From Caenimonas sedimenti (GTDB lineage Bacteria; Pseudomonadota; Gammaproteobacteria; Burkholderiales; Burkholderiaceae_C), in NCBI RefSeq assembly GCF_007833165.1, contig NZ_VOBQ01000001.1:62001-126000 (forward strand): a stretch of DNA of 64,000 nt, read 5' to 3'. The notes below the pieces were generated by a model. It made no database searches. It was not told the DNA's origin and saw only the letters and a program-made list of their open reading frames with translations. Shown piece after piece: positions 608-16,107 of the stretch; within the stretch, counting starts at the first letter, position 1; every line of letters starts with the position of its first letter. The position numbers and the translations under genes are program-made.

Positions 608-1363
608 GTGTTGCAGCTCGACCAGGTGGTTCGCACGTTCGGCGCCCTGCGCGCCGTCGACGGCGTCAGCCTGCAGGTGGCGGCGGGTTCCATCACCGGA
701 CTGATCGGGCCCAACGGCGCAGGCAAGACCACGCTGTTCAACACCATCGCGGGCAGCGCCCGCCCCGACGCCGGCGAGATCCGCCTGCGCGGCGAGCGGA
801 TCGACGGCCTGCGGGCCGACCAGGTGTTCCATCGCGGCCTGGGCCGCACCTTCCAGATCCCGCGGCCGCTGGCCACCCTGACCGTCACCGAAAACATGTT
901 GCTGGCGCCGACGGGCCAGAGCGGCGAGAAGTTCTGGAACAGCTGGCTGGCGCGCGGCCGGCTGCGGGCGCAGGACGCCGCCCACCTGGCCAAGGCGCGC
1001 GAACTGCTGGACTTCGTCGGGCTCTCGGCCCTGGCCGAGCAGAAGGCCGGCGTGCTTTCCGGAGGCCAGCAGAAGCTGCTGGAGCTGGCGCGCATCCTGA
1101 TGGTGGATCCTGCGCTGATCCTGCTGGACGAACCGGCCGCCGGTGTCAATCCGGTGCTGCTGGAAAGCCTGGTGGCGCGCATCCAGGACCTGCACCGGCG
1201 CGGCGTCACCTTCCTGCTGATCGAGCACAACATGGACATGGTGATGCAGCTGTGCAACCCCGTGGTCGTGATGGCGCAGGGGCGGGTGGTGATGCAGGGA
1301 ACGCCGCAGGAAGTGCGGGCGGATGCGCGGGTGATCGATGCGTATCTTGGGGATGCTCCATGA
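608..1363 (+). CDS. livG: ABC transporter ATP-binding protein, LivG type
   Basis: This is one of two cytoplasmic ATPases of a hydrophobic amino acid/organic-acid uptake ABC transporter (HAAT family). Walker A GPNGAGKT is at residues 34-41, signature LSGGQQ at 150-155, Walker B ILLDEP at 171-176 and the switch His at 207. The 251-residue length is normal for LivG. The start is GTG at 608, with AAGGA about 10 bases upstream. The stop overlaps the next ATG (ATGA), so it is translationally coupled to livF. The substrate cannot be read from this subunit. Confidence 0.93.
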   Translation: MLQLDQVVRTFGALRAVDGVSLQVAAGSITGLIGPNGAGKTTLFNTIAGSARPDAGEIRLRGERIDGLRADQVFHRGLGRTFQIPRPLATLTVTENMLLAPTGQSGEKFWNSWLARGRLRAQDAAHLAKARELLDFVGLSALAEQKAGVLSGGQQKLLELARILMVDPALILLDEPAAGVNPVLLESLVARIQDLHRRGVTFLLIEHNMDMVMQLCNPVVVMAQGRVVMQGTPQEVRADARVIDAYLGDAP

Positions 1364-2106
1364 GCCTGCTGGAGGCGCGCAACGTCGTGGCGGGCTACGT
1401 TCCGGGCCTCCCGATCGTTCACGGCGTCAGCGTCGATGTCGACCTGGGCCAGGTCGTCGTCGTCCTGGGCCCCAACGGCGCCGGCAAATCCACCCTCGTG
1501 AAGGCGCTCGCCGGTGTCGTGTCCACTTTCGCCGGCCATGTGATGCTTGAAGGCCGCGACATCACGAGCACGCCGGCCCACAAGCTCAGCGCGGCGGGCG
1601 TGGGCTACGTGCCGCAGAACGCGAACGTCTTCACCACGCTCAGCGTGGAGGACAACCTGCGCGCCGGCGGCTACCTGCTCAAGCAAGACCTGAGACAACG
1701 GGTCGACCATGCGTTCGCCCGCTTCCCGGATCTGGAGAAGCATCGCAAGCAACCGGGCCGTGCGCTGTCGGGCGGCCAGCGCCAGATGCTCGCCATTGCG
1801 CGTGCCTTGATGACGTCGCCTCGGCTGCTGCTGCTCGACGAGCCCAGCGCGGGCTTGTCACCGCTGATGGTGAACGAGGTGTTCGCCCAGGTCCGCCGCA
1901 TCGCCGACAGCGGCGTGGCCGTGCTGATGGTGGAGCAGAACGTGCGCGCCGGCCTGCGGATCGCCGACCGCGGCGTCGTGCTGGTGAACGGCCTGGTGGC
2001 GCGCGCCGGCACGGCCGCCGACCTGGCCGCCGACCAAACGCTGGCCCACGCGTACCTCGGCAAGCTGGCGGGCGAGAGCGCTGCCGCCACGGAAGGCCGC
2101 GCATGA
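1360..2106 (+). CDS. livF: ABC transporter ATP-binding protein, LivF type
   Basis: This is the second ATPase of the HAAT transporter. Walker A GPNGAGKS falls at about residues 37-44, followed by LSGGQRQ and LLLLDEPSAGLSP. At 248 residues it has usual LivF size. The start is the ATG in the ATGA overlap with livG; an upstream in-frame start would lie deep inside livG and is not credible. The gene overlaps livH by four bases. Confidence 0.93.
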   Translation: MSLLEARNVVAGYVPGLPIVHGVSVDVDLGQVVVVLGPNGAGKSTLVKALAGVVSTFAGHVMLEGRDITSTPAHKLSAAGVGYVPQNANVFTTLSVEDNLRAGGYLLKQDLRQRVDHAFARFPDLEKHRKQPGRALSGGQRQMLAIARALMTSPRLLLLDEPSAGLSPLMVNEVFAQVRRIADSGVAVLMVEQNVRAGLRIADRGVVLVNGLVARAGTAADLAADQTLAHAYLGKLAGESAAATEGRA

Positions 2107-3002
2107 TCGCCCAGGCCATCGCCGACGGATTCCTGAACGGCGCCATCGTCGCGCTCGGCGCCATCGGCGTGACGTTCAGCCTGGCCATCCTGCGCTTCGC
2201 CAACTTCTCGCATGGCGACCTGCTGGCGGTCGGCGCCTATGCGGCGCTGTTCCTGCTGCTGTCCATCGGTGCGCCCAAGGTGCCGCTGGGTCCGTTCTCC
2301 TTCGGCGCGGGCATGGGGGTGGCGTTGCTGGCCGGCATGATCATCGCCATCGCCGTTTCGCTCTTGCTCGATCGGCTGGTCTATCAAAGGCTGCGGCGGC
2401 GCGGTGCCGATCCGCTGACCCTGGTCTTCGCCTCCTTCGGCCTGGCGCTCGTGCTGCGCAGCGTGCTGCACCTGCTCTTTGGCCCCGACCCGTTCAACTA
2501 CAGCAACGAGATCCAGATGGCGCTGCTGCTGCCTGGCAACGTGCGGGTGCTGCCGGACCAGGTGCTGGTGTTCGTGGTCACGCTCGTCGTGCTGGGGGCG
2601 CTCGCCTGGTTCCTGCAACGCACGCGCTACGGCGTCGCCATGCGGTCGGTGGCGGAGAACCCGATGCTGGCGAGCGTCGCCGGCATCGACCCGGTGGCGA
2701 TCGTGCGCCTGACCTGGATCGTTTCGACAGCGCTCGCGGCGCTGGCCGGCGTGTTCTACGGCATGACGGTGCAGGTGCGCCCGGAGATGGGACTGAACCT
2801 GCTGCTGCCGCTGTTCACCGCCGCCATCCTCGGCGGCGTGGGCAGCGTCACGGGCGCCGTCGTGGGCGCGCTGGCGATCAGCCTGGCGGAGAGCCTGCTC
2901 ACGCTGGTGATGCCGACGAGCTACCGGCCGCTGGTGCCCTTCGTGTTGCTGCTGCTAGTGCTCTACTTCCGCCCGGCGGGCCTGTTCGCGGCGAAGCACT
3001 GA
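2103..3002 (+). CDS. livH: Branched-chain-type ABC permease, LivH type
   Basis: This integral inner-membrane permease of 299 residues has about eight hydrophobic segments, starting with the N-terminal IADGFLNGAIVALGAIGVTF. The LivH-type features RFANFSHGDLLAVGAY and AAILGGVGSVTGAVVGALA (the cytoplasmic coupling region) are present. It pairs with LivM to form the channel. It overlaps livF by four bases, and livM begins eight bases after its stop. Confidence 0.92.
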   Translation: MIAQAIADGFLNGAIVALGAIGVTFSLAILRFANFSHGDLLAVGAYAALFLLLSIGAPKVPLGPFSFGAGMGVALLAGMIIAIAVSLLLDRLVYQRLRRRGADPLTLVFASFGLALVLRSVLHLLFGPDPFNYSNEIQMALLLPGNVRVLPDQVLVFVVTLVVLGALAWFLQRTRYGVAMRSVAENPMLASVAGIDPVAIVRLTWIVSTALAALAGVFYGMTVQVRPEMGLNLLLPLFTAAILGGVGSVTGAVVGALAISLAESLLTLVMPTSYRPLVPFVLLLLVLYFRPAGLFAAKH

Positions 3003-3009
3003 GCCACCG

Positions 3010-3924
3010 ATGACCAGCTACCTTTTCTTCTTCATCACCGTCGCCGCGATCTTCGCGATCGCGACGCTGGGGCTGAACCTGCAATGGGGCGTCTCCGGCC
3101 AGTTCAACGCGGGCGTGGTCGGTTTCGTGGCCGTGGGCGGCTACACGCTGGCCGTTCTCACGATGCCGGCCAGCCAGCAACTGCTGGTGAAGCTGAACCT
3201 GCCCTTCGCGCTGGGTGTTGTCGGAGCGCTGGTCGTGACGGCGCTCGTTGCGCTGCTGGTCGGCCTGGCCACGCTCAAGCTGCGGACCGACTACTTGGCC
3301 ATCACCACCTTCGGCATCGCCTCGTCGATCCAGGTGATCGTGAACAACCTCGACCCGCTCACGGGCGGCTCGCGCGGCCTGGTGGGCATCCCCCGGCCCT
3401 TCGATGCGCTCGGCCAGCCGAACTACACCATCGCCTGGATGGTGATGGTGCTGGTGCTGCTGGCCATCGTCTACTTCGGCCTGCAGGCATTGCTGCATTC
3501 GCCCTGGGGCCGTGTGCAGCGCGCCCTGCGGGAGGACGAGGAAGTCTGCGCCGCCCTCGGCAAGAACGTGGTCCGCTTCCGCATGGAGGCGTTCGTGCTC
3601 GGGGCCGTGCTGATGGGCTTGTCGGGGGCGCTCTATGCCGGGTTTGTCGGGACGACGAGCCCCTCGGAGTTTCTACCGATCATGACCTTCCAGATCTGGG
3701 CCATGCTGATCGTCGGGGGCAGCGGCAGCAACCTGGGCGCGATCGTCGGCAGCTTCGTCATCTGGGGCGTGTGGACCTTCTCCGGCGCCGCCATCGTGAG
3801 CGTGCTGCCGGCCAAGCTGCAGGCGCAGGGCGGGGCCGTGCAGGCCATCCTGGTCGGGCTGATCCTGGTGTTGACTTTGTTGCTTCGCCCCCGCGGGATC
3901 ATGGGAGCGAAGCAGGGCGGTTGA
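3010..3924 (+). CDS. livM: Branched-chain-type ABC permease, LivM type
   Basis: This second permease subunit of 304 residues has many hydrophobic helices. Typical LivM motifs are present: the early LGLNLQWGVSGQFNAG segment, the middle KLRTDYLAITTFGIA, and a late IVGGSGSNLGAIVGSFV. The C-terminal RPRGIMGAKQGG matches the usual RPxGLxG ending. It sits between livH and the periplasmic binding protein gene in the normal order of such operons. Confidence 0.92.
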   Translation: MTSYLFFFITVAAIFAIATLGLNLQWGVSGQFNAGVVGFVAVGGYTLAVLTMPASQQLLVKLNLPFALGVVGALVVTALVALLVGLATLKLRTDYLAITTFGIASSIQVIVNNLDPLTGGSRGLVGIPRPFDALGQPNYTIAWMVMVLVLLAIVYFGLQALLHSPWGRVQRALREDEEVCAALGKNVVRFRMEAFVLGAVLMGLSGALYAGFVGTTSPSEFLPIMTFQIWAMLIVGGSGSNLGAIVGSFVIWGVWTFSGAAIVSVLPAKLQAQGGAVQAILVGLILVLTLLLRPRGIMGAKQGG

Positions 3925-3960
3925 GTGTTCGAACTTTTTATCCTTGAAGGAGAGCGGATC

Positions 3961-5238
3961 ATGAAGAACGTGAAGACAGCGGTAGGTGGCGCGATGTTGC
4001 TGGCGGCTGCGGCCTGGTCCGCGCCCGCCCTGGCGCAGGGGAGCTGCGCCGAACCGGTGAAGCTGGGCGGCGTGCTCGCGCTCACGGGTGCGCAAGGCAC
4101 GATCGGCAAGGTGATCGCCGATGCCGGCAAGCTGGCCGTCGACCAGGTCAACAAGGCGGGCGGCGTCAAGGGCTGCCAGGTCGAGTTCGTGGTGCGTGAC
4201 GACACCAGCCAACCCTCGGTGGGCCTCGACGCGGCGCGCTACCTGGTCGATGTCTCCAAGGTCCAGGCCATCGTGGGCCTGGTGGGCAGCGGCACGGCGC
4301 TGCAGGTCGTGAACTCGGTCTCCGTGCCGAACAAGATCCCCACGGTGGCCTGCTGCGCGGTCACGCCGGCGTTGACCAGGATGGCGGAAGAGGGCAAGAC
4401 AGGCGGCTACTTCTTCCGCACCATCCCGACGGCGCGCTCGATGGCGCTCGCGCATGCGCAGGCGGCGATGGACAAGGGCTACAAGAACACCGTCATCATG
4501 TACATCAACAACGACTTCGGCAACGGCACGGCGCCGGACGCGAAGACGGCGTTGGAGAAGCTGGGCGGCAAGGTCGCCGGTGTCGTGCCCTACGCGGAGA
4601 ACCAGCCTTCCTACCGCGCGGAAGTGCAGAAGGCGCTGGCGCTCAACCCCGATTCGCTGATCCTGATCGGCCTGTCCGCCGACGGCACCACCATCCTGCG
4701 CGACTGGTTCTCGCTGGGCGGCACGCAGAACGTCATCCTGCACAACACCATGCGTTCGCCCGACGTGATCAAGAACGTCGGTGAACGCTTCCTGGGCAAG
4801 GCGGTCGGCGTCGACAACGGCCAGGCCTCCGGGCCATCGGCCGATGCTTTCAACAAGGACTTCCAGGAGGCGTACGGCCGCCCGGCGGTCGGGCCCGGCC
4901 TGCACACCATGTACGACGCCACGGCCATCACGCTGCTGGCGATGCAGGCGGCGGCCAAGCTCGACGGCGTGTCGATCCGTGACGCGCTGCGCGCGGTGCA
5001 GGATCCGACCGGTGTCGAAGTGCAGGCCGGCGTCGAAGGCCTGAAGAAGGGCCTGGATGCGCTCAAGGCCGGACGCAAGATCCGCTATGTCGGCGCGACC
5101 GGCGCCTTCCGCTTCGACCGCAACGGCGACGTCACCGGCCCGATGCTGACCTGGAAGCTGAACGGCAGCGAGATCGTGACCGAGAAGGTCATCTCGCTCG
5201 AGCAGATGAACGCGCTCGGCACGAAGGCCGGTTTCTGA
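3961..5238 (+). CDS. Periplasmic substrate-binding protein of the LivGFHM transporter (LivK-like)
   Basis: This type 1 periplasmic binding protein of 425 residues begins with a signal peptide (MKNVKTAVGGAMLLAAAAWS, cleavage near ALAQG). The mature part starts with KLGGVLALTGAQGTIGKVIA, the standard Leu/Ile/Val/amide-binding fold. The start is ATG at 3961 with a GAAGGAGAG ribosome site; an earlier in-frame GTG would precede the signal peptide and is rejected. Members of this family bind amino acids, amides, urea or aromatic acids. The aldo/keto reductase and molybdoenzyme downstream suggest a catabolic substrate rather than an amino acid. Confidence 0.92.
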   Translation: MKNVKTAVGGAMLLAAAAWSAPALAQGSCAEPVKLGGVLALTGAQGTIGKVIADAGKLAVDQVNKAGGVKGCQVEFVVRDDTSQPSVGLDAARYLVDVSKVQAIVGLVGSGTALQVVNSVSVPNKIPTVACCAVTPALTRMAEEGKTGGYFFRTIPTARSMALAHAQAAMDKGYKNTVIMYINNDFGNGTAPDAKTALEKLGGKVAGVVPYAENQPSYRAEVQKALALNPDSLILIGLSADGTTILRDWFSLGGTQNVILHNTMRSPDVIKNVGERFLGKAVGVDNGQASGPSADAFNKDFQEAYGRPAVGPGLHTMYDATAITLLAMQAAAKLDGVSIRDALRAVQDPTGVEVQAGVEGLKKGLDALKAGRKIRYVGATGAFRFDRNGDVTGPMLTWKLNGSEIVTEKVISLEQMNALGTKAGF

Positions 5239-5249
5239 TCGGGCAAGCC

Positions 5250-6338
5250 ATGGCCATCGAAACCATCACCCTGGCGCCCGGCTACACGGTGTCGCGGGTG
5301 GCCAAGGGCAACTGGCAACTGGCCGCCAAGCACGGCAAGCCCTACGCGCAGGACGACGCGGTGGAGGACATGCGCCGCTTCGTCGAAGCGGGCATCAACG
5401 CTTTCGATTGCGCGGATCACTACGTCGGCGTCGAGGACACCATCGGCGCGTTCCGCCGCAAGTACCCCGGGCTGGGGCGGCAGCTGCGGGTCTCGACCAA
5501 GTACACCCCGGACCAGGACCTGATCCCGCGCCTGACCCGCGCGGACGTCGGGAAGGCGGTCGACACCTCCCTGGAGCGGCTGGGCGTGGAGCAGCTGGAC
5601 CTGGTGCAATTCCACTGGTGGGACTACGACGTGCCCGGCTGTGCGCAAGCCATGCTGTGGCTGCAGGAGTTCCAGCGCGCCGGCAAGATCGCCCACCTCG
5701 GCACGACCAATTTCAACGTGCCCAGGCTGCGCGAGATCCTGGACGCGGGCGTGAAGCTGCTCTCCAACCAGCTGCAGTACTCCGTGCTCGACCACCGGCC
5801 CGAGAACGGCATGGTCGACCTGTGCCAGGCTCACGGCATCCACCTGCTTTGCTATGGCACGGTTGCGGGGGGCTTCCTCTCCGACAAATGGCTGGGCCAG
5901 CCGGAACCGCAAGGCGAATACCCGAACCGGTCGCTGGTCAAGTACCGGCTGATCATCGAGGACTTCGGCGGCTGGGAGGCGTACCAGGCGATGCTGCGCA
6001 CGCTGGACGGGATCGCACGCAAGCACGGCACCAGCATTGCGGCCGTCGCGGCGCGCTATGTGCTGGACAAGCCACAGGCATCGGTGGCGCTCGTGGGAGC
6101 GCGCGACGCGTCGCACCTTGACCAGAACCTGGCGATCTTCCGCACCCATCTCGATGACGACGACCGCCGGCAGATCGCGGCCCTGGTCGCGCAGGCGCCC
6201 GGGCCCCAGGGCGACTGCTACGACGCCGAGCGCGTCAAGGGCGGTGCGCACGCCGGCATCATGCACACCAACCAGAACACGCGCGGCGCGCCGGCGCACA
6301 TCGACATGACGCCGCCGCTGGCCACCGCGAGGAGATGA
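5250..6338 (+). CDS. Aldo/keto reductase
   Basis: This is an NAD(P)H-dependent oxidoreductase of the AKR (beta/alpha)8-barrel superfamily, 362 residues. The catalytic tetrad is visible: Asp53, Tyr58, Lys84 and His122 (in VQFHWWDYDV). It begins 11 bases after the binding-protein gene and is almost flush with the next gene, so it is in the same operon. The C-terminal 40 residues extend beyond the usual barrel. It probably reduces or oxidises a carbonyl/alcohol intermediate of the imported compound; the substrate is unknown. Confidence 0.88.
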   Translation: MAIETITLAPGYTVSRVAKGNWQLAAKHGKPYAQDDAVEDMRRFVEAGINAFDCADHYVGVEDTIGAFRRKYPGLGRQLRVSTKYTPDQDLIPRLTRADVGKAVDTSLERLGVEQLDLVQFHWWDYDVPGCAQAMLWLQEFQRAGKIAHLGTTNFNVPRLREILDAGVKLLSNQLQYSVLDHRPENGMVDLCQAHGIHLLCYGTVAGGFLSDKWLGQPEPQGEYPNRSLVKYRLIIEDFGGWEAYQAMLRTLDGIARKHGTSIAAVAARYVLDKPQASVALVGARDASHLDQNLAIFRTHLDDDDRRQIAALVAQAPGPQGDCYDAERVKGGAHAGIMHTNQNTRGAPAHIDMTPPLATARR

Positions 6339-6339
6339 C

Positions 6340-6690
6340 ATGAGCGACGACAAGCGCAACGACGAGTTCGTGCTCTACGACCTGCGGGTCGAGGTGCTGG
6401 AGACGCCCGGCAAACCCTTCGTCAGCCACGTCAAGGCCGGCGACTGGTTCGAGGTGATCGGCGGGCGGCTGATCTTCCCGCCCGACCGGCCCTCGTTTTC
6501 GCTCTACGCGATGATGGCGGTGCTGCCCTTCATCCCCGCCAAGCAGCGGCCCACCCATCCCAACGACTGGATGACCACCGACTCCGAGATTGCCTGCCTC
6601 GACCCGGCTTGCGGCGCGAAATTCCGCATCACCCGGCTGGAGAAACGGACATTGCACCACGGGGATTTCTCGGCCTTGCCGCTGCCCTGA
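6340..6690 (+). CDS. TIGR04076-like small protein
   Basis: This 116-residue protein has an initial beta-strand region (YDLRVEVLET), a KAGDWFEVIGGRLIFP segment and a central SLYAMMAVLPFIPAKQR stretch. This is the general pattern of the TIGR04076 family, small cytoplasmic proteins often found with oxidoreductases. Two Cys in DSEIACLDPACGAKF could bind a metal. The ATG follows the AKR stop by one base, so expression is probably coupled. Function is unknown; I assign the family by eye with moderate confidence. Confidence 0.65.
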   Translation: MSDDKRNDEFVLYDLRVEVLETPGKPFVSHVKAGDWFEVIGGRLIFPPDRPSFSLYAMMAVLPFIPAKQRPTHPNDWMTTDSEIACLDPACGAKFRITRLEKRTLHHGDFSALPLP

Positions 6691-6702
6691 AGCCCCGCGG
6701 CC

Positions 6703-9700
6703 ATGGCGCAGCAACGCAAGGCCGGCTTCTGCACGCTGTGCCGTTCGCGTTGCGGCGCGTGGTACGTCACCGAAGGTGACCGGCTGGTCGGCGTCGAGCC
6801 GTTCCCGGAACATCCCACGGGGCAGGCCTTGTGCCCCAAGGGGAGAGCCGCGCCAGAGCTGGTCTACCACGCGCAGCGCTTGCGCAGACCGCTCAAGCGC
6901 ACGCGGCCGAAGACGGACGAGGACCCGGGCTGGGTCGAGGTGGCGTGGGACGAAGCGATGGCGGACATCGCGTGGCGGCTGAACCAGATCAAGGCAGAGA
7001 GCGGGGCCGAGGCAGTCGCCTTCTCCAGCGCATCGCCCGGCGCCACGCCGATCTCTGACAGCCTCGAATGGATCGAGCGTCTGATCTTTGCTTTCGGCAG
7101 CCCGAACTTCATCACCGGCGTCGAGATCTGCAACTGGTACCGCGACGTCTCGCACCAGTTCACGACCGGCAGCGCGCTGGGCATGCCGGACTACGCCCAT
7201 TCGGACCTGATCGTCTTGTGGGGATTCAATCCCGCGAATGCCTGGCTGGCGCAGGCCAATGGCATCAGCGCGGCCCGCGCGCGGGGCGCGCGCTTGCTCG
7301 TGATCGACCCCGCGCCGACGCGGTACGCGAGGGGTGCGGACTGGTGGCTGCAGGTGAAGCCCGGTACCGACGCGGCACTCGCGCTCGGATTGGCCCGCTG
7401 CTTGATCGAGCGGGGGCGCTTCGACGAAGGCTTCGTGCGCCGCTGGAGCAATGCGCCGCTGCTGGTGCGCGACGACACGGGGGAGTTCCTTCGCTCCGGC
7501 GGCTGCTTCATGGCGTGGAACACGCGATCGACGCAGGTGGTGGAAGTCGACACGCGCGTGGCGATGGCGCCCGAGCTCGCCGCCGGCCTGGCCTTGCGCG
7601 GCAGCTTCGAAGTGGATGGCGTGCGATGCCGGCCCGCCTTCGATCACTACGCTGAGGCTTGCGCCCCCTACACGCCGCAGCGAGTGGAGGAACTCACCGG
7701 TATCGCCGCCGCGCATGTCGAGGCTGCCGCCGCAGCGATCGCCGGCGCGGCCAGCACGAGCTACTTCTGCTGGACCGGCATCGCGCAGCATGTCAACGCG
7801 ACGCAGGCGGATCGCGCCATCGCGCTGCTGTTCGCGCTGACGGGCGGCATCGACACGCCCGGCGGCAATCTCGAGTTGGCGCGGCAAGGCGTGAACAAGG
7901 CCAGCGACCGCTCGCTGATGCCGCCGGGCCAATGCGAACTGGCGCTCGGTCTGAAGGAGCGGCCCCTGGGTCCAGCGGCGCACGGCTGGGCGCTGGGGCG
8001 CGACGTCTATCGCGCGATCGTCGACGCGCAGCCGTATCGAATCCGCGCGCTGTTCGGCTTCGGCGCCAACGTGCTGCTCTCGCAGGCCGACACGCCGCTC
8101 GATCCGCGCGTTGCAGTCGCTGGAATTCCAGGTGCACTGCGACCTGTTCGAAACGCCGACTGCCCGCTATGCCGACTACCTGCTGCCGGTGAACACGCCG
8201 TGGGAGCGCGAGGGCCTGCGGATCGGCTTCGAGATCAACGCTCCGGCGGAAGACCTCATCCAGCTACGCCAGCAGATCATTCCGCAGGCGGCGGATGACT
8301 TCGCGCGCTCCGACCTGCAGATCGTGTTCGACCTGGCGGTGCAGCTGGGCCTCGCGCGCCATTTCTTCGACGGGGACATCGAAGCGGCATGGAACCACCA
8401 GCTGGCGCCCATCGGTTTGACGGTGGACGAATTGCGCAGGCACCCCGAGGGTATCCGGCGTCCCGTGCAACAGAGGCCTCGCAAGTACCAGGACCAGACC
8501 GAAGGGGGCGTCCGCGGCTTCGCCACGCCGACCCGTCGCATCGAGTTCTATTCGGAGCGGCTGCACCTTCACGGCTATCCGGCCGTGCCGCGGGAGATCG
8601 AGCCGCGCCGGTCCGTCGCGCTGGACGACGCGGAGCTGGAGCGCTTCCCACTCACGCTCACCTGCGCCAAGAGCGGCTACTTCTGCCACTCGCAGCACCA
8701 CGCGCTGGCGTCCTTGCGCCGGCGCCTGCCGGAGCCGCTGGCGCACCTGCACCCCACGCTGGCGGCGGCTCGCGGCATCGCGCCGGGCGACTGGTTCCGC
8801 ATCGCCACGCGCACGGGCAGCGTGCGCTTCCGCGCGAGCATCGACCAGGCGGTGCAGCCCGACGTGGTGATGGCGAGCTACGGCTGGTGGCAGGCCTGCG
8901 ATGACCTGGGCCTGCCGGCGGTGGCGATCACGGGCGCGGACAGCAGCCACTACAACGGGCTGGTCGGCGCGGAGCAACTGGATGAAGTCGCGGGGTCCAT
9001 CGCGCTGCGGGCGTTTCCCTGCGAGATTTCACGCGAAGCCGGCACGCAAGGCCAGGGCTGGCAAGGGTTCAAGGCATTTCGCGCGCAGCGCGTGACCGTT
9101 GTGCCAGGCGAGCACCCACCCGAGGTCGTGGAACTGGCGTTGACCGCGGAAGACGGCAGTGTGCTGCCGGACTTTCATCCGGGCCAGTACGTACCCTTGG
9201 CTTTGGAACTGCCCGGCGTGCCGGGACGGTTGGAACGCAGCTATTCGCTGATCGGGCCGGCACGCTTGGAGGGCCGCACGGAATACCGCATCGCGGTCAA
9301 GCGCGCGAGTGGTTCCGCGGGCGTGTCCCAAGCACTGCACGAGATCGGAGACGAGTGCAGGGTCTGGTTGCAAAGCCCGCGCGGCCAGTTCCTGCTGCCG
9401 CGCGCCGGGCGCGCTCCGGTGGTCCTGGTGGCGGCGGGCATCGGCATCACGCCATTTCTCGGTTTGCTGGAGACGCTGGCCGCCGAGGCGCCACCAGAGG
9501 TGCCGCCCATCACGCTCTACCACTGCAACCGCGACGCCGCCAGCCGCGCGTTCGCACCACGCATCGCCGAACTGGCACCGCGCATTCCCGGCATGCAGGT
9601 GATCGACGTGTACAGCCGCACCGCGGGCCGCCTCACGGCCGCGGCGATGGCGCAGCACCTGATCGACGCGCACGCGCGGTTCTATCTCTGTGGCCCGGAC

Positions 9701-10063
9701 GCGATGTTGCGCAGCCTGACAGAGGGCCTGGTGGCGCGGGGCGTGCACCGCTTCGCCATTTTCCGCGAGAGCTTCCAGGGCGTGGCGTACGTCGGCCCGG
9801 CGGACGAAGGAACGTTCCGCGTGCGTTTCGAACGCAGCGGCCGCGAACTCACCTGGACTGGCGCGTCCGGCACCCTGCTGCAATTGGGCCTGGACCAGGG
9901 CCTGGAGTTGCCCAGCGGCTGCCGCGTCGGCCAGTGCGAAAGCTGCCTGCTGCGCGTGCGGTCTGGCCGCGTGCGGCACCTGGCCGAGGTGGACCTTGCG
10001 GAAGAGGGCACTTGTCTCGGCTGCCTCGCCATCCCTTGCAGCGACGTGGTGCTCGATGCCTGA
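6703..10063 (+). pseudogene. Molybdopterin oxidoreductase fused to VanB-like reductase and 2Fe-2S ferredoxin domain, frameshifted
   Basis: Two frames together encode one ~1120-residue protein. Part 1 (from ATG 6703) has a 4Fe-4S site at Cys10, Cys13, Cys17 and Cys44, then the molybdopterin-bis(guanine dinucleotide) fold; Cys143 (GVEICNW) is a candidate Mo ligand. The frame breaks at about 8104. Part 2 (first ATG-less frame from ~8105) carries the rest of the molybdopterin domain, the dinucleotide-binding C-terminal domain, then a flavin/NAD reductase (RSYSL, GIGITPF, LCGPDA) and a C-terminal plant-type 2Fe-2S domain (Cys codons at 9920, 9935, 9944 and 10013 or 10022). The order flavin-NAD-2Fe2S matches phthalate dioxygenase reductase/VanB. 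Such an enzyme could take electrons straight from NAD(P)H. The lesion is a real mutation or a sequence error. Confidence 0.85.
8104..8105 (+). other. Frameshift site (one extra C) inside the molybdopterin oxidoreductase gene
   Basis: Up to GAT at 8101-8103 the upstream frame gives a good family sequence (LLSQADTPLD). Dropping one C of the CC at 8104-8105 joins it to CGC GCG TTG CAG, giving RALQSLEFQVHCDLF and then a continuous domain to 10063. Without the correction the upstream frame runs to 8298 in non-homologous, Arg/Pro/Ala-rich residues. The change lies in a CC dinucleotide, a common place for indel errors. Confidence 0.8.
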
Positions 10064-10787
10064 CCGTCGCTTCGCCCTCATCGGAGCTGGCCGCATCGCG
10101 CTGCCGGTGATCGAAGCATGGCGCGCGGGGGAGCTTCCCGGCTGGCAGCTGGAGGCGGTGCTCACGCGGCAGCCGCGGCAAATCGAGGGCGTGCGCTCGA
10201 CGACGGACGCCGCCGCGTTCTTCTCGGGCGTCTACGCCCTGATCGTCGACACGGCGGGCCCAGCGGCGTTCGCCCTGCATGCCTGCAATGCGCTCGCCAG
10301 GGCCGATGTCTGGACGGTCAGCGCCGTGGCGCTGGCCGATCCGCAACTGCTCGCGAAGGTCGAAGAGACCGCGCAGCGCACCAGCCACCGGCTGCGCCTG
10401 CTGCACGGCGCGACGGCTGGCCTCGACGGCGTCGCAGCGGCTTGCGTCGATCCCGAAGCGGTGCTGCACCTGCAGATCGACCTGCCGCCGGGCGGAGGCC
10501 CTCCAGGTGTCATCTTCAGCGGCACGGTGCGAGAAGCCGCGCGGCGCTTCCCCAACAGCGTGAACGTCGCCGTCACGCTGGCGTTCGCGGGCGCCGGGCT
10601 GGACCAGACCCGCGTCGAAGTGTCGCACCCCGACCCGGCGATGCCCTACCGGCTGGCGCTGCGCGTCACCAGCCGCTACGGAACTTGCCAGGTGGAGACC
10701 TTCCCGAAGGTCGGCCCCGGCATCCATCCCGTCGCCGCCAGCATCATCGCGGCCCTGCGCAATGCGCAGGCGCCGGTGTGGACGTAG
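10056..10787 (+). CDS. L-aspartate dehydrogenase-like (NadX/DUF108) protein
   Basis: This 243-residue NAD(P)-binding protein has an N-terminal Rossmann motif (LIGAGRIA). In its C-terminal half it carries the typical NadX/DUF108 signature: SGTVREAARRFPNSVNVAVT and a final HPVAASIIAALRNAQAPVW. The family includes L-aspartate dehydrogenase and uncharacterised dehydrogenases. The ATG at 10056 overlaps the end of the molybdoenzyme by eight bases, so it belongs to the same operon and may act on a catabolic intermediate rather than in NAD synthesis. No nadA or nadC lies nearby. Confidence 0.8.
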   Translation: MPDRRFALIGAGRIALPVIEAWRAGELPGWQLEAVLTRQPRQIEGVRSTTDAAAFFSGVYALIVDTAGPAAFALHACNALARADVWTVSAVALADPQLLAKVEETAQRTSHRLRLLHGATAGLDGVAAACVDPEAVLHLQIDLPPGGGPPGVIFSGTVREAARRFPNSVNVAVTLAFAGAGLDQTRVEVSHPDPAMPYRLALRVTSRYGTCQVETFPKVGPGIHPVAASIIAALRNAQAPVWT

Positions 10788-13224: not shown

Positions 13225-14121
13225 TCACGGCGTGACGAGGTTGAACTGCGCGATCAGCCAGTCCTTGAACTTCACCAGCGGATCGAAACTCGCGCGCGCC
13301 TCCGGGTGGCAGACCCAGTAGCCGAACTCCGAGCGGTAGCTGTCCGGCATGGGCGCACCGATCACGCCGCTCGCGACGTCGTCCTGCACCAGGCAGCTCG
13401 GTACCAGCGCCAGCCCCATGCCGGCGGCTACCGCACGGATCAGCCCGTGGTACTGGTCGAGTTGCGGCCCCGCGAACGTGTTGACGCCGCGCACGCCGTG
13501 CGCGCCGCACCATTCATCCCAGGCGTTGGGCACCGTGGTGTGATGCAGCAGGACCTGGCTGGCCACGTCCTGCGGCTTGCGCAGCTTGCGTGCGAGCAGC
13601 GGGGCCGGCGGCGCGATGAGCGTGACTTCGCGGCCTGCCAGGTAGGTGGCCGTCGCGCCCGGCCAATGGCCGACACCATACAGGATCGAGCAGTCGAGGT
13701 CCTTCCGGCTGAAGTCGTAGCCCTGCGTGTAGGGCACGAAGTGCAGGGCGATCTGCGGGTGCAGCTTCTGGAACGACGGCAAGCGCGGGATCAGCGCCTT
13801 GGCGCTGAAGGTGGGCAGGGCCGACAGGTGCAGCATGCCGCCGCCGTCGTGGCTGGCCATCGCCTCCAGCGTGGCGCTTTCGAGCTGGCTGAGCAGCGGC
13901 CGCACGGAGGCTTCATAGCGGGCGCCGGCGGGTGTCAGTGAGATGCGCTGGCGCACGCGCTCGAACAGCGCGACGCCGAGATGGCGTTCCAGTTCCTGCA
14001 CCTGCTTGCTGACCGCGCTCTGCGTCAGGTGCAGCGCTTCGGCGGCGCGCGAGATGCTGCCGAAGCGGGTGGTGGTGACGAATGCCTGCAGCAAGTGGAT
14101 GGGGGGTTGGAGTCTGCGCAT
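13225..14121 (-). CDS. LysR-family regulator (GcvA-like)
   Basis: This 298-residue LTTR has an N-terminal winged helix-turn-helix (FGSISRAAEALHLTQSAVSKQVQELE) and a C-terminal periplasmic-binding-like effector domain. It is divergent from a Bug receptor gene at 14236 across a 114-base gap containing an LTTR-type box (14135-14149). It probably controls that receptor/amidohydrolase group. The effector is unknown. Confidence 0.9.
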   Translation of the reverse strand: MRRLQPPIHLLQAFVTTTRFGSISRAAEALHLTQSAVSKQVQELERHLGVALFERVRQRISLTPAGARYEASVRPLLSQLESATLEAMASHDGGGMLHLSALPTFSAKALIPRLPSFQKLHPQIALHFVPYTQGYDFSRKDLDCSILYGVGHWPGATATYLAGREVTLIAPPAPLLARKLRKPQDVASQVLLHHTTVPNAWDEWCGAHGVRGVNTFAGPQLDQYHGLIRAVAAGMGLALVPSCLVQDDVASGVIGAPMPDSYRSEFGYWVCHPEARASFDPLVKFKDWLIAQFNLVTP

Positions 14122-14235: not shown

Positions 14236-15192
14236 ATGAAGCGACGTCAATTCCATGTTCTCGCGGCCGCCAGCGCGCTGGCCGCGCCGGCCTGGGCGCA
14301 GGCCCGGCCCTTGCGCCTGGTCGTTCCCTTTCCGCCGGGCGGTGCCACCGACATCACGGCCCGCGCCCTGGCGGAGCCGCTGGGGCGTCTCCTGGGGCAG
14401 GCCATCATCGTGGACAACCGCAGTGGGGCGGGAGGTTCAGTGGGCATGGCCGAACTGGCCAAGGCCGCGCCGGACGGCAACACCCTGGGCTTGGCCACCT
14501 TGTCGACGCACGGCGTGAACCCAGCGGTGTACAAGAAGCTGCCCTACGACCCCTTGAAGGACTTCGCGCCGGTCACCGAGATCGTCAAGGCGCCGGGTGT
14601 GCTGGTGGTGCACCCCTCGGTGAGGGCCGAGAGCATCTCGGAGTTCATCGCCCTGCTCAAGGCCAACCCGGGCAAGGTGACCTATGCGTCGCCCGGCAAC
14701 GGCACCATCGGCCATATGTGGGCCGAGCTGTTCAAGAGCACGACCAAGACCTTCATGCTGCACATCCCCTATCGCGGCGCCGGCCCGGCACTGACCGACC
14801 TGCTCGCGGGGCAGGTGCAGGTCTATTTCGACCAGGTGGCGTCGTCCCTGCCGCATATCCAGTCGGGCAAGCTGCGGGCGCTGGCCGTCTCGTGGAGCAC
14901 GCGCCTGCCCTTCATGCCGGCCGTGCCGACCTATGCCGAGGCGAGCCTCTTCTCCAACAACGATCCTTCGTGGTTCGGGCTGCTGGCGCCGGCCGGGACG
15001 GCCACCGCCACGGTGAAGCGCGTGCAGGAAGCCGTGGCCCGGGCGATCAAGGAGCCCGCGGTGGCGGAGCGCCTGGCCGGGCAGGGCCTGTTTCCTTCGG
15101 GCAGCCTGCCGGAAGACTTCGGCCACCAGTTGCGCAAGGAGATCGACAAGATGCGCCGCATCAGCCAGTTCGCGAAGATCACGCTGGATTGA
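14236..15192 (+). CDS. Bug/TctC-family periplasmic solute receptor
   Basis: This is a tripartite-tricarboxylate-transporter-type receptor of 318 residues with a signal peptide ending in APAWAQA. Family motifs are RLVVPFPPGGATDITARALA, the VDNRSGAGGSVG loop, and PYRGAGPALTDLLAGQV in the middle. These receptors bind carboxylates or related small molecules in the periplasm. No TctA/TctB membrane genes are in the window, so it depends on components elsewhere or has a sensory role. An N-formylglutamate-amidohydrolase-like gene follows after three bases. Confidence 0.92.
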   Translation: MKRRQFHVLAAASALAAPAWAQARPLRLVVPFPPGGATDITARALAEPLGRLLGQAIIVDNRSGAGGSVGMAELAKAAPDGNTLGLATLSTHGVNPAVYKKLPYDPLKDFAPVTEIVKAPGVLVVHPSVRAESISEFIALLKANPGKVTYASPGNGTIGHMWAELFKSTTKTFMLHIPYRGAGPALTDLLAGQVQVYFDQVASSLPHIQSGKLRALAVSWSTRLPFMPAVPTYAEASLFSNNDPSWFGLLAPAGTATATVKRVQEAVARAIKEPAVAERLAGQGLFPSGSLPEDFGHQLRKEIDKMRRISQFAKITLD

Positions 15193-15195
15193 GGC

Positions 15196-16107
15196 TTGAG
15201 TACCGTCTTGGAACTGATTCGCCACCGGGCGCTTCATCCGGAGCGCGAAGAAACCGCCCGCTCGCTGATCCGCACCAGCGCCGGGACCACCGCGCTGGTG
15301 TTCGATTCACCGCACAGCGGCACCTGCTATCCCGCCGATTTCGATCACGCTTGCGACTTGGCTGCATTGCGGCGCGCGGAAGACACGCATGTCGAGAAGC
15401 TGTTCGATTTTGCGCCGGCGCTCGGCATCAGCTGGGTGGAAGCGCTGTTCCCGCGCAGCTATCTCGACGTCAACCGCCACGAAGGCGAGATCGATCTCTC
15501 GATGATCGAAGGCCCCTGGCGCGGACTAGTGGAATCGGACCCCACCGCGCTGGCCAAGGTCCGCCTGGGCAAGGGCCTGGTCTGGAAGCTGACCGACGAC
15601 GGCTTGCCCCTCTACGCGCGCAAGCTCTCCGCCGCCGAAGTCAGCGCGCGCATCGAGCGTTGCTGGCGGCCGTACCATGCGGCCGTCGCGGAGGCGATCG
15701 CCGGTGCGCACGCGCGCCACGGCTTCAGCCTCCACGTGAACTGCCATTCGATGCCGGCCATCGCGGCCAGCCACGCGACCGAGCACCCGGGGCTGGTGCA
15801 CGCGGATTTCGTCCTGGGTGACCGCGACGGGACCACCGCGAGCCCGAAGCTTGCCGCACTGGTGGCCGAGTGGTTGCGCGGGCGCGGCTATACGGTATGG
15901 CTCAATCACCCGTACAAGGGCGTGGACCTCGTGCGCCGCCATGGCCATCCGGCCGCCCGACGGCACAGCATCCAGCTCGAAGTGAATCGCAAGCTTTACA
16001 TGGACGAAGAGACGCTGGTACTGCATGCCGGCAGCGAGCGGCTCCAGCGCCATCTGCGCGAACTCGCGGGCGAATTGCTGCGCCTGCGCGCCATGGACCT
16101 GGCATGA
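15196..16107 (+). CDS. N-formylglutamate amidohydrolase family protein (HutG-like)
   Basis: This 303-residue hydrolase of the HutG/N-formylglutamate deformylase family has VFDSPHSG (residues 35-42), DVNRHEGEID and a later HVNCHSMP, all expected metal/active-site regions. The start appears to be TTG at 15196, three bases after the receptor gene; no closer ATG exists before conserved sequence. No other histidine-utilisation gene is nearby, so the true substrate may be another N-acyl amino acid imported through the adjacent receptors. Confidence 0.85.
   Translation: MSTVLELIRHRALHPEREETARSLIRTSAGTTALVFDSPHSGTCYPADFDHACDLAALRRAEDTHVEKLFDFAPALGISWVEALFPRSYLDVNRHEGEIDLSMIEGPWRGLVESDPTALAKVRLGKGLVWKLTDDGLPLYARKLSAAEVSARIERCWRPYHAAVAEAIAGAHARHGFSLHVNCHSMPAIAASHATEHPGLVHADFVLGDRDGTTASPKLAALVAEWLRGRGYTVWLNHPYKGVDLVRRHGHPAARRHSIQLEVNRKLYMDEETLVLHAGSERLQRHLRELAGELLRLRAMDLA

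Follow-up and report, generated by a model that had tools for sequence, protein, structure and literature searches.

A molybdopterin oxidoreductase joined to a phthalate-dioxygenase-reductase module in Caenimonas sedimenti: domains, distribution and recurrent gene partners

The fusion gene and its frame break

A 64,000-nucleotide stretch of Caenimonas sedimenti DNA (contig NZ_VOBQ01000001.1, positions 62,001 to 126,000; hereafter the window) holds, on its forward strand, a gene in which a molybdenum (Mo) enzyme is joined to an NAD(P)H reductase module. The gene is found as two overlapping open frames, 6703-8298 (531 aa) and 8111-10063 (650 aa). The Pfam families Molybdop_Fe4S4 and Molybdopterin were detected in the first frame and Molydop_binding, NAD_binding_1 and Fer2 in the second, all above curated cut-offs and with E-values reaching 4e-21. 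Pfam gave no flavin domain in the second frame; residues 341-635 of this frame were matched by phthalate dioxygenase reductase (PDR; 2pia, E 1.3e-18), and the match covers the flavin part. The N-terminal part of the gene (6703-8109), delimited by its open frame, sequence and Pfam, thus comprises a 4Fe-4S domain (PF04879, about 6727-6870) and a molybdopterin domain (PF00384, about 6877-7887), in which the codon at 7129-7131 encodes a candidate Mo-ligand cysteine. This residue aligns with a cysteine of 2e7z, 2vpw and 7qv7 that we take to be the metal ligand there. The C-terminal part (8108-10063), defined by Pfam, the 2pia match and its cysteine pattern, comprises a molybdopterin guanine dinucleotide (MGD)-binding domain (PF01568, about 8651-9013), flavin and NAD(P) domains (PF00175 and the 2pia match, about 9119-9715) and a C-terminal 2Fe-2S domain (PF00111 and the cysteine pattern, about 9866-10036).

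The window fusion retains 160 of 170 residues that never vary in 48 aligned intact relatives. The cysteines for the 4Fe-4S cluster, the Mo ligand and the 2Fe-2S cluster are all kept, with five cysteines retained in the 2Fe-2S region. Given these residues and the E-values, the domain matches are not due to chance, and the fusion of a Mo-bisMGD half with a flavin-NAD-2Fe-2S half is confirmed as real. The first half shows the features of the dimethyl sulfoxide (DMSO) reductase (bis-MGD) superfamily: PF04879, PF00384 and PF01568 all exceed the gathering score, and the candidate ligand Cys143 is shared by the window and all 48 aligned relatives. The second half has the flavin, NAD and C-terminal 2Fe-2S order of the PDR family together with its cysteines. 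The domain order described in an earlier note on this DNA, a 4Fe-4S/Mo-bisMGD enzyme joined to a PDR module, is therefore borne out by Pfam and the 2pia match. That the enzyme should be self-sufficient with NAD(P)H, as the note also held, is predicted from the domain architecture.

Since intact relatives read straight through the junction as one frame, the two frames represent one gene with a single break at about 8101-8111. The earlier note had taken the combined frames for a fusion; the domains stand, and the corrected description is one gene broken by a frame change at this point. Third-position GC is gene-like on either side of the break (0.878 in the first part, 0.862 in the second); the importer genes measured upstream lie slightly higher, at 0.91-0.93. 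Because the invariant columns and the cluster and ligand cysteines are kept, the break is recent or an assembly error, and, this being one assembly, either the window copy is broken or the assembly is erroneous there. The window copy may not yield the full chain. A programmed frameshift was considered and rejected, as no slippery heptamer was seen by eye around the break and the frame of relatives continues through this site.

It is possible, if rather doubtful, that the frame break is real, the gene dead and the operon decaying, a reading compatible with the others weighed below. The break itself would fit, as would the frame-broken or split fusion copies in loci L018, L024, L026 and L116 and the stops inside the fusion matches of L131 and L132. 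Against this, the 3.36 kb hold no second break, codon-position GC is gene-like in both parts and the partner gene of the fusion is open. Fusion copies of Mesorhizobium and Sinorhizobium (L018, L026, L100) lie in separate frames or coding sequences.

Distribution of the fusion

One genome per species was scanned with two peptide patterns, either of which sufficed, and 494 stretches were found to encode a relative; the best 80 were kept. A single open frame of 1112-1330 codons holding the 4Fe-4S, Mo-Cys and 2Fe-2S motifs was present in 77 of these best 80, the exceptions being L080, L086 and L100. The check for intact homologues with the same domain order, proposed in the earlier note, thus returned a conserved fusion, whereas the label "rare" did not hold, the architecture being patchy instead. 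The tree of relatives spans Proteobacteria of many families and Actinomycetota. With the window's own genome counted, the fusion occurs in 8 of 399 genomes of its family, and 4 of 229 genomes of its class match, two of them over about half the query with an internal stop; none of the five other listed genomes of the genus has a relative. Plasmid records matched the fusion in 42 cases, 37 of them over at least 80% of the query. The patchy occurrence in the family and the plasmid matches indicate that the fusion is no one-off but patchy and apparently mobile.

Near-identical fusions were seen on a Raoultella plasmid (L029) and in Leclercia (L076) and Alteromonas (L079), amid genes for metal-transport P-type ATPases, which points to recent transfer between families. 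Near the fusion in L029 lie extra lpxC and peptide deformylase genes (tested with Pfam), and by annotation both also occur nearby on a Klebsiella plasmid (L020), where the fusion coding sequence is shorter.

The two halves are not fused in every case. A search for more fusions linked to aspartate dehydrogenase (AspDH)-like genes gave Mo-half relatives without the reductase module in 2 of 390 genomes of another order (L144 and L145, with L146 and L147 as the wider stretches). They come from one genus, are about 800 aa long in 810-codon frames, and their match ends at about residue 790 of the fusion, so that the module is absent from these genes. No further matches to the neighbour queries were found in the 14 kb around them. 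In the literature searched, whose coverage leaves out most subscription journals, no description of the fusion was found among the papers listed; it is a widespread variant assembled from known parts, and the fusion enzyme is uncharacterized.

Gene neighbourhood and recurrent partners

Upstream of the window fusion, on the same strand, lie two Liv-type ATPase genes (608-1363 and 1252-2106, the second probably starting later; PF00005 and NCBIfam), two Liv-type permease genes (2103-3002 and 3010-3924; PF02653), a Liv-type substrate-binding protein gene (3925-5238; PF13458), an aldo/keto reductase gene (5250-6338; PF00248, 236.6 bits) and a gene for a TIGR04076-family small protein (6340-6690; 54.3 bits, NCBIfam cut-off 33). 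Downstream, and also on the forward strand, an AspDH-like gene (10056-10787; PF01958/PF03447) overlaps the end of the fusion. All neighbours named in the earlier note, the ABC importer (608-5238), the aldo/keto reductase and the AspDH-like protein, are present according to Pfam, and the TIGR04076-family gene is added to them. The AspDH-like protein, likely an imine reductase, passes the Pfam AspDH C-terminal domain, although none of the curated NCBIfam AspDH models reached its cut-off on it (best 97.4 bits versus 177).

Frames around the fusion were clustered in 94 loci, and distances were measured in 100, three of which repeat a counted locus. Sixty loci flanked by 9 kb or more on either side of the fusion, none of them a repeat, were used for the distances. 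An ornithine cyclodeaminase (OCD)-family gene was found within 4.5 kb of the fusion in 35 of the 60, and in one the nearest copy lies at 4.5-9 kb. The corresponding counts within 4.5 kb are 44 loci for SCFA_trans and 5 for a Liv-type permease, and for neither did any locus have the nearest copy in the 4.5-9 kb range. No locus counted for SCFA_trans is also counted for Liv, so that one importer or the other accompanies the fusion in 49 of 60. Ten of eleven OCD partners scanned scored 390-441 bits with NF004793 (cut-off 322), the model of the bifunctional delta1-pyrroline/delta1-piperideine-2-carboxylate reductase, which was exceeded in none of 14 control genomes; the eleventh, a 249-aa frame in L107, gave no family at the limit used. 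OCD-superfamily enzymes act on amino-acid ketimines, and some have been shown to be pyrroline-2-carboxylate reductases (passages of PMC4113996).

Amine-handling enzymes are encoded directly downstream of two other fusions, NADP-glutamate dehydrogenase in L106 and an omega-aminotransferase in L060. The Rhodococcus locus L017 has proline dehydrogenase and pruA on the opposite strand, about 5 kb downstream. A hydroxyproline route, whose enzymes are treated in parts of PMC5144071 and PMC4113996, was considered and dropped: the proline racemase family (PF05544) passed in 3 of 15 genomes and AcnX (PF04412) in 2, and, judged by coordinates, none lies near a fusion or a reductase found in these genomes.

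Beside the window fusion no pyrroline/piperideine-2-carboxylate reductase was found, and no gene of the genome exceeds the NF004793 cut-off; the AspDH-like gene adjoins the fusion in place of the OCD-family reductase. Close relatives of this AspDH-like protein are scarce in the genomes sampled: they were found at E 1e-25 in its own genome only, among 300 genomes of the order, and at E 1e-18 in its own and one other of 398 genomes of the phylum. At the looser E 1e-10, 33 plasmid records matched, 23 of them from Agrobacterium; in the one Agrobacterium record examined, opine-oxidase-like and RidA genes surround the AspDH-like gene and a fusion is not annotated.

A second neighbourhood of this kind is on the plasmid pLA6_003 of a Paracoccaceae bacterium, La 6 (L122), which holds relatives, at 38-55% identity, of every gene of the set at 608-10787: an intact fusion of 1129 aa, TIGR04076, an aldo/keto reductase, four Liv genes, a binding protein and an AspDH-like gene. 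Of the 100 loci in which distances were measured, L122 alone has the TIGR04076 and AspDH-like genes. The neighbourhood pointed out in the earlier note therefore recurs on this plasmid, while the frequent partners are the OCD-family gene and SCFA_trans. The L122 fusion falls into a distant lineage with L016 (support 100/99), on a long branch whose placement is unsure. In a tree of the C-terminal piece the window fusion groups with L098 and L099 (95/88), whereas a quick tree built on the N-terminal piece places it with L022 and L028. That one gene set accompanies two such distant fusions suggests that these genes work together and share more than their descent. In Comamonas sp. BIGb0124 (L042) the importer genes are arranged as in the window, and an OCD gene precedes the fusion.

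Candidate reaction and alternatives

A profile built from the 48 relatives was searched against the PDB. Acetylene hydratase (2e7z) was the best match with 291 bits, followed by 2vpw (deposited as thiosulfate reductase, 248) and the formate dehydrogenase subunit of HDCR (226). An AlphaFold model of the intact relative in L009 (mean pLDDT 89.3, pTM 0.86) likewise had 2e7z as its best fold match, with a TM-score of 0.87 by target length. The metal-ligand cysteine of acetylene hydratase aligns with Cys143 of the fusion family. Where acetylene hydratase has its catalytic Asp13, beside the Fe-S cysteines, the window and 47 of the 48 aligned fusions have Arg; unlike the fusion, acetylene hydratase has no NAD(P)H module. 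This kinship would suit a reductive dehydroxylase of the acetylene hydratase/catechol dehydroxylase branch, acting on a hydroxylated (hetero)aromatic acid with its own electron supply. The catechol dehydroxylases of Eggerthella and Gordonibacter are bis-MGD enzymes like the fusion, were assayed with artificial donors and are, in the part of PMC7028382 drawn on here, reported to be closest to acetylene hydratase; this published relation offers a lead. However, what recurs beside the fusion are genes for imine enzymes and importers rather than aromatic-ring genes, and we consider such a dehydroxylase unlikely.

None of the curated NCBIfam function models listed for an intact relative reached its cut-off. 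The formate dehydrogenase equivalog TIGR01591 scored 222.2 bits versus 666.25, and where formate dehydrogenases carry His directly after the Cys/Sec ligand, the window, like 47 of the 48 aligned fusions, has Asn. The earlier note had allowed that the fusion might turn out to be an already characterized type of nitrate reductase. An assimilatory nitrate reductase with a fused electron module would agree with the nasC annotation of the La 6 copy in its record and with the lack of an export signal, as seen by eye. NasC-type enzymes also contain bis-MGD, but an intact relative scored only 146.6 bits with the NasC model (cut-off 1100) and 75.7 with NasA(Halo) (cut-off 1000), and the recurrent partners of the fusion, an imine reductase and an SCFA_trans or Liv-type importer, differ. 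The fusion is thus not a recognized nitrate reductase, and this identity is highly improbable. A defence role was also discarded, since neither an intact relative nor the TIGR04076 and AspDH-like genes gave a PADLOC hit.

The direction of electron flow was considered from the reductase module. Modules of PDR order are known for flow from NADH to an acceptor. In 2pia and the VanB-type reductases the flavin, NAD and C-terminal 2Fe-2S domains follow in the same order as in the fusion tail, although there they form the separate partner of an oxygenase, whereas in the fusion the module is the tail of a molybdoenzyme. Some bis-MGD enzymes oxidize their substrates, and a dehydrogenase-like protein is among the neighbours of both the window and L122 fusions, so that a hydroxylating dehydrogenase handing electrons to NAD(P)+ may be imagined. 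The PDR order of the module and the Asn in place of the formate dehydrogenase His speak against it, and we judge an oxidative enzyme very unlikely.

We favour, though tentatively and with somewhat less than even confidence, a cytoplasmic, self-sufficient Mo reductase that would make an imine from an imported nitrogen-containing acid, the partner reducing this imine to an amino acid. The importer would bring in the acid, and electrons would pass from NAD(P)H through the flavin, the 2Fe-2S and the 4Fe-4S clusters to Mo-bis-MGD, all in one chain. At the cysteine-held Mo site the acid would be reduced to an imine (an alpha-imino acid), and the partner would convert it to the amino acid, thereby pulling the first step forward. 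This partner would be the OCD-family delta1-pyrroline/piperideine-2-carboxylate reductase in many relatives and the AspDH-like protein in the window. The reductive direction, the imine product and the class of substrate are what the domains and neighbours would predict.

The same electron path could serve another substrate. An N-O bond reductase, turning an oxime, N-hydroxy or nitro compound into an imine or amine, would equally fit the imine and amine partners beside the fusions. A known Mo-dependent reductase of N-oxygenated compounds is mARC (PMC10637980), but it belongs to a different Mo family (MOSC), and the sequence does not favour N-O over C-O or C=C reduction. We regard N-O bond reduction as a serious but rather unlikely candidate.

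Several points weigh against the proposed route from an imported acid via an imine to an amino acid. The imine step is drawn from neighbouring genes, and operation of the PDR module in reverse is conceivable in principle. Since the 60 loci are related to one another, in some cases closely, they do not count as independent observations, and in 24 of them no OCD gene was found within 9 kb. NF004793 is exceeded in 34 of 150 family genomes, far more than carry the fusion, and ten such reductase loci away from it had no conserved neighbours; this type of reductase is hence not specific to the route. The AspDH-like family likewise occurs without the fusion, for example on an Agrobacterium plasmid. 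Finally, L123-L126 and L129 hold TIGR04076, aldo/keto reductase and Liv genes with no fusion found in the stretch, so that in the window these genes may serve another step.

Among these loci, L123, L125 and L126 have a second, longer aldo/keto reductase gene in addition to this set. In L123, the only one tested, it is a fusion of an aldo/keto reductase with a RidA-type (Ribonuc_L-PSP) domain (2284-3768). L124 has a DAO-type oxidase with the set, and G987 has a set including the AspDH-like gene with no fusion within 19 kb. RidA, DAO, OCD and AspDH-like proteins have in common that they form or remove imines. L125 and L126 have genes that resemble this L123 gene in size and annotation, and in L126 a gene of the peptide deformylase family (1870-2367) stands at the end of the Liv/TIGR04076/aldo/keto reductase operon.

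If the proposed route is correct, it would give soil and plant-associated bacteria a reductive path for nitrogen compounds; neither a function model nor, in the literature searched, a paper was found for it. Many molybdoenzymes need separate electron carriers that have to be found before an assay, whereas an enzyme made of one soluble chain and expected to work with NAD(P)H could go straight from expression to screening. With an imine reductase recurring next to the fusion, the search for the substrate can be narrowed to compounds that would yield imino acids. In a more specific form of the route, which we think quite unlikely, a family of NAD(P)H-driven molybdoenzymes in aerobic bacteria would reduce an aromatic or otherwise stable N-heterocyclic acid (such as pyrrole-2-carboxylate or a picolinate relative) to a cyclic imino acid. 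The neighbouring pyrroline/piperideine-2-carboxylate reductase would draw this step on, reductive dearomatization or dehydroxylation would feed proline or pipecolate, and the window and La 6 would represent a second specificity.

This second specificity would combine the AspDH-like partner with an altered site next to the Mo-Cys. At position 146, three residues beyond that cysteine, 55 of 56 aligned fusions have His and the remaining one, La 6, has Gln; the window, outside these 56, has Tyr. Both H146 and Y394 are changed in the window and in L122. The shared active-site change is suggestive only and was rejected as proof, since over the 170 invariant columns the shared changes are 2 of the window's 10, an overlap at chance level (p 0.31).

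Downstream of the operon in the window, genes for a TctC-type binding protein and a member of the N-formylglutamate amidohydrolase family were noted at 14236-16107, and a LysR-like frame (13225-14121, by eye) lies between the operon and the TctC-type gene.

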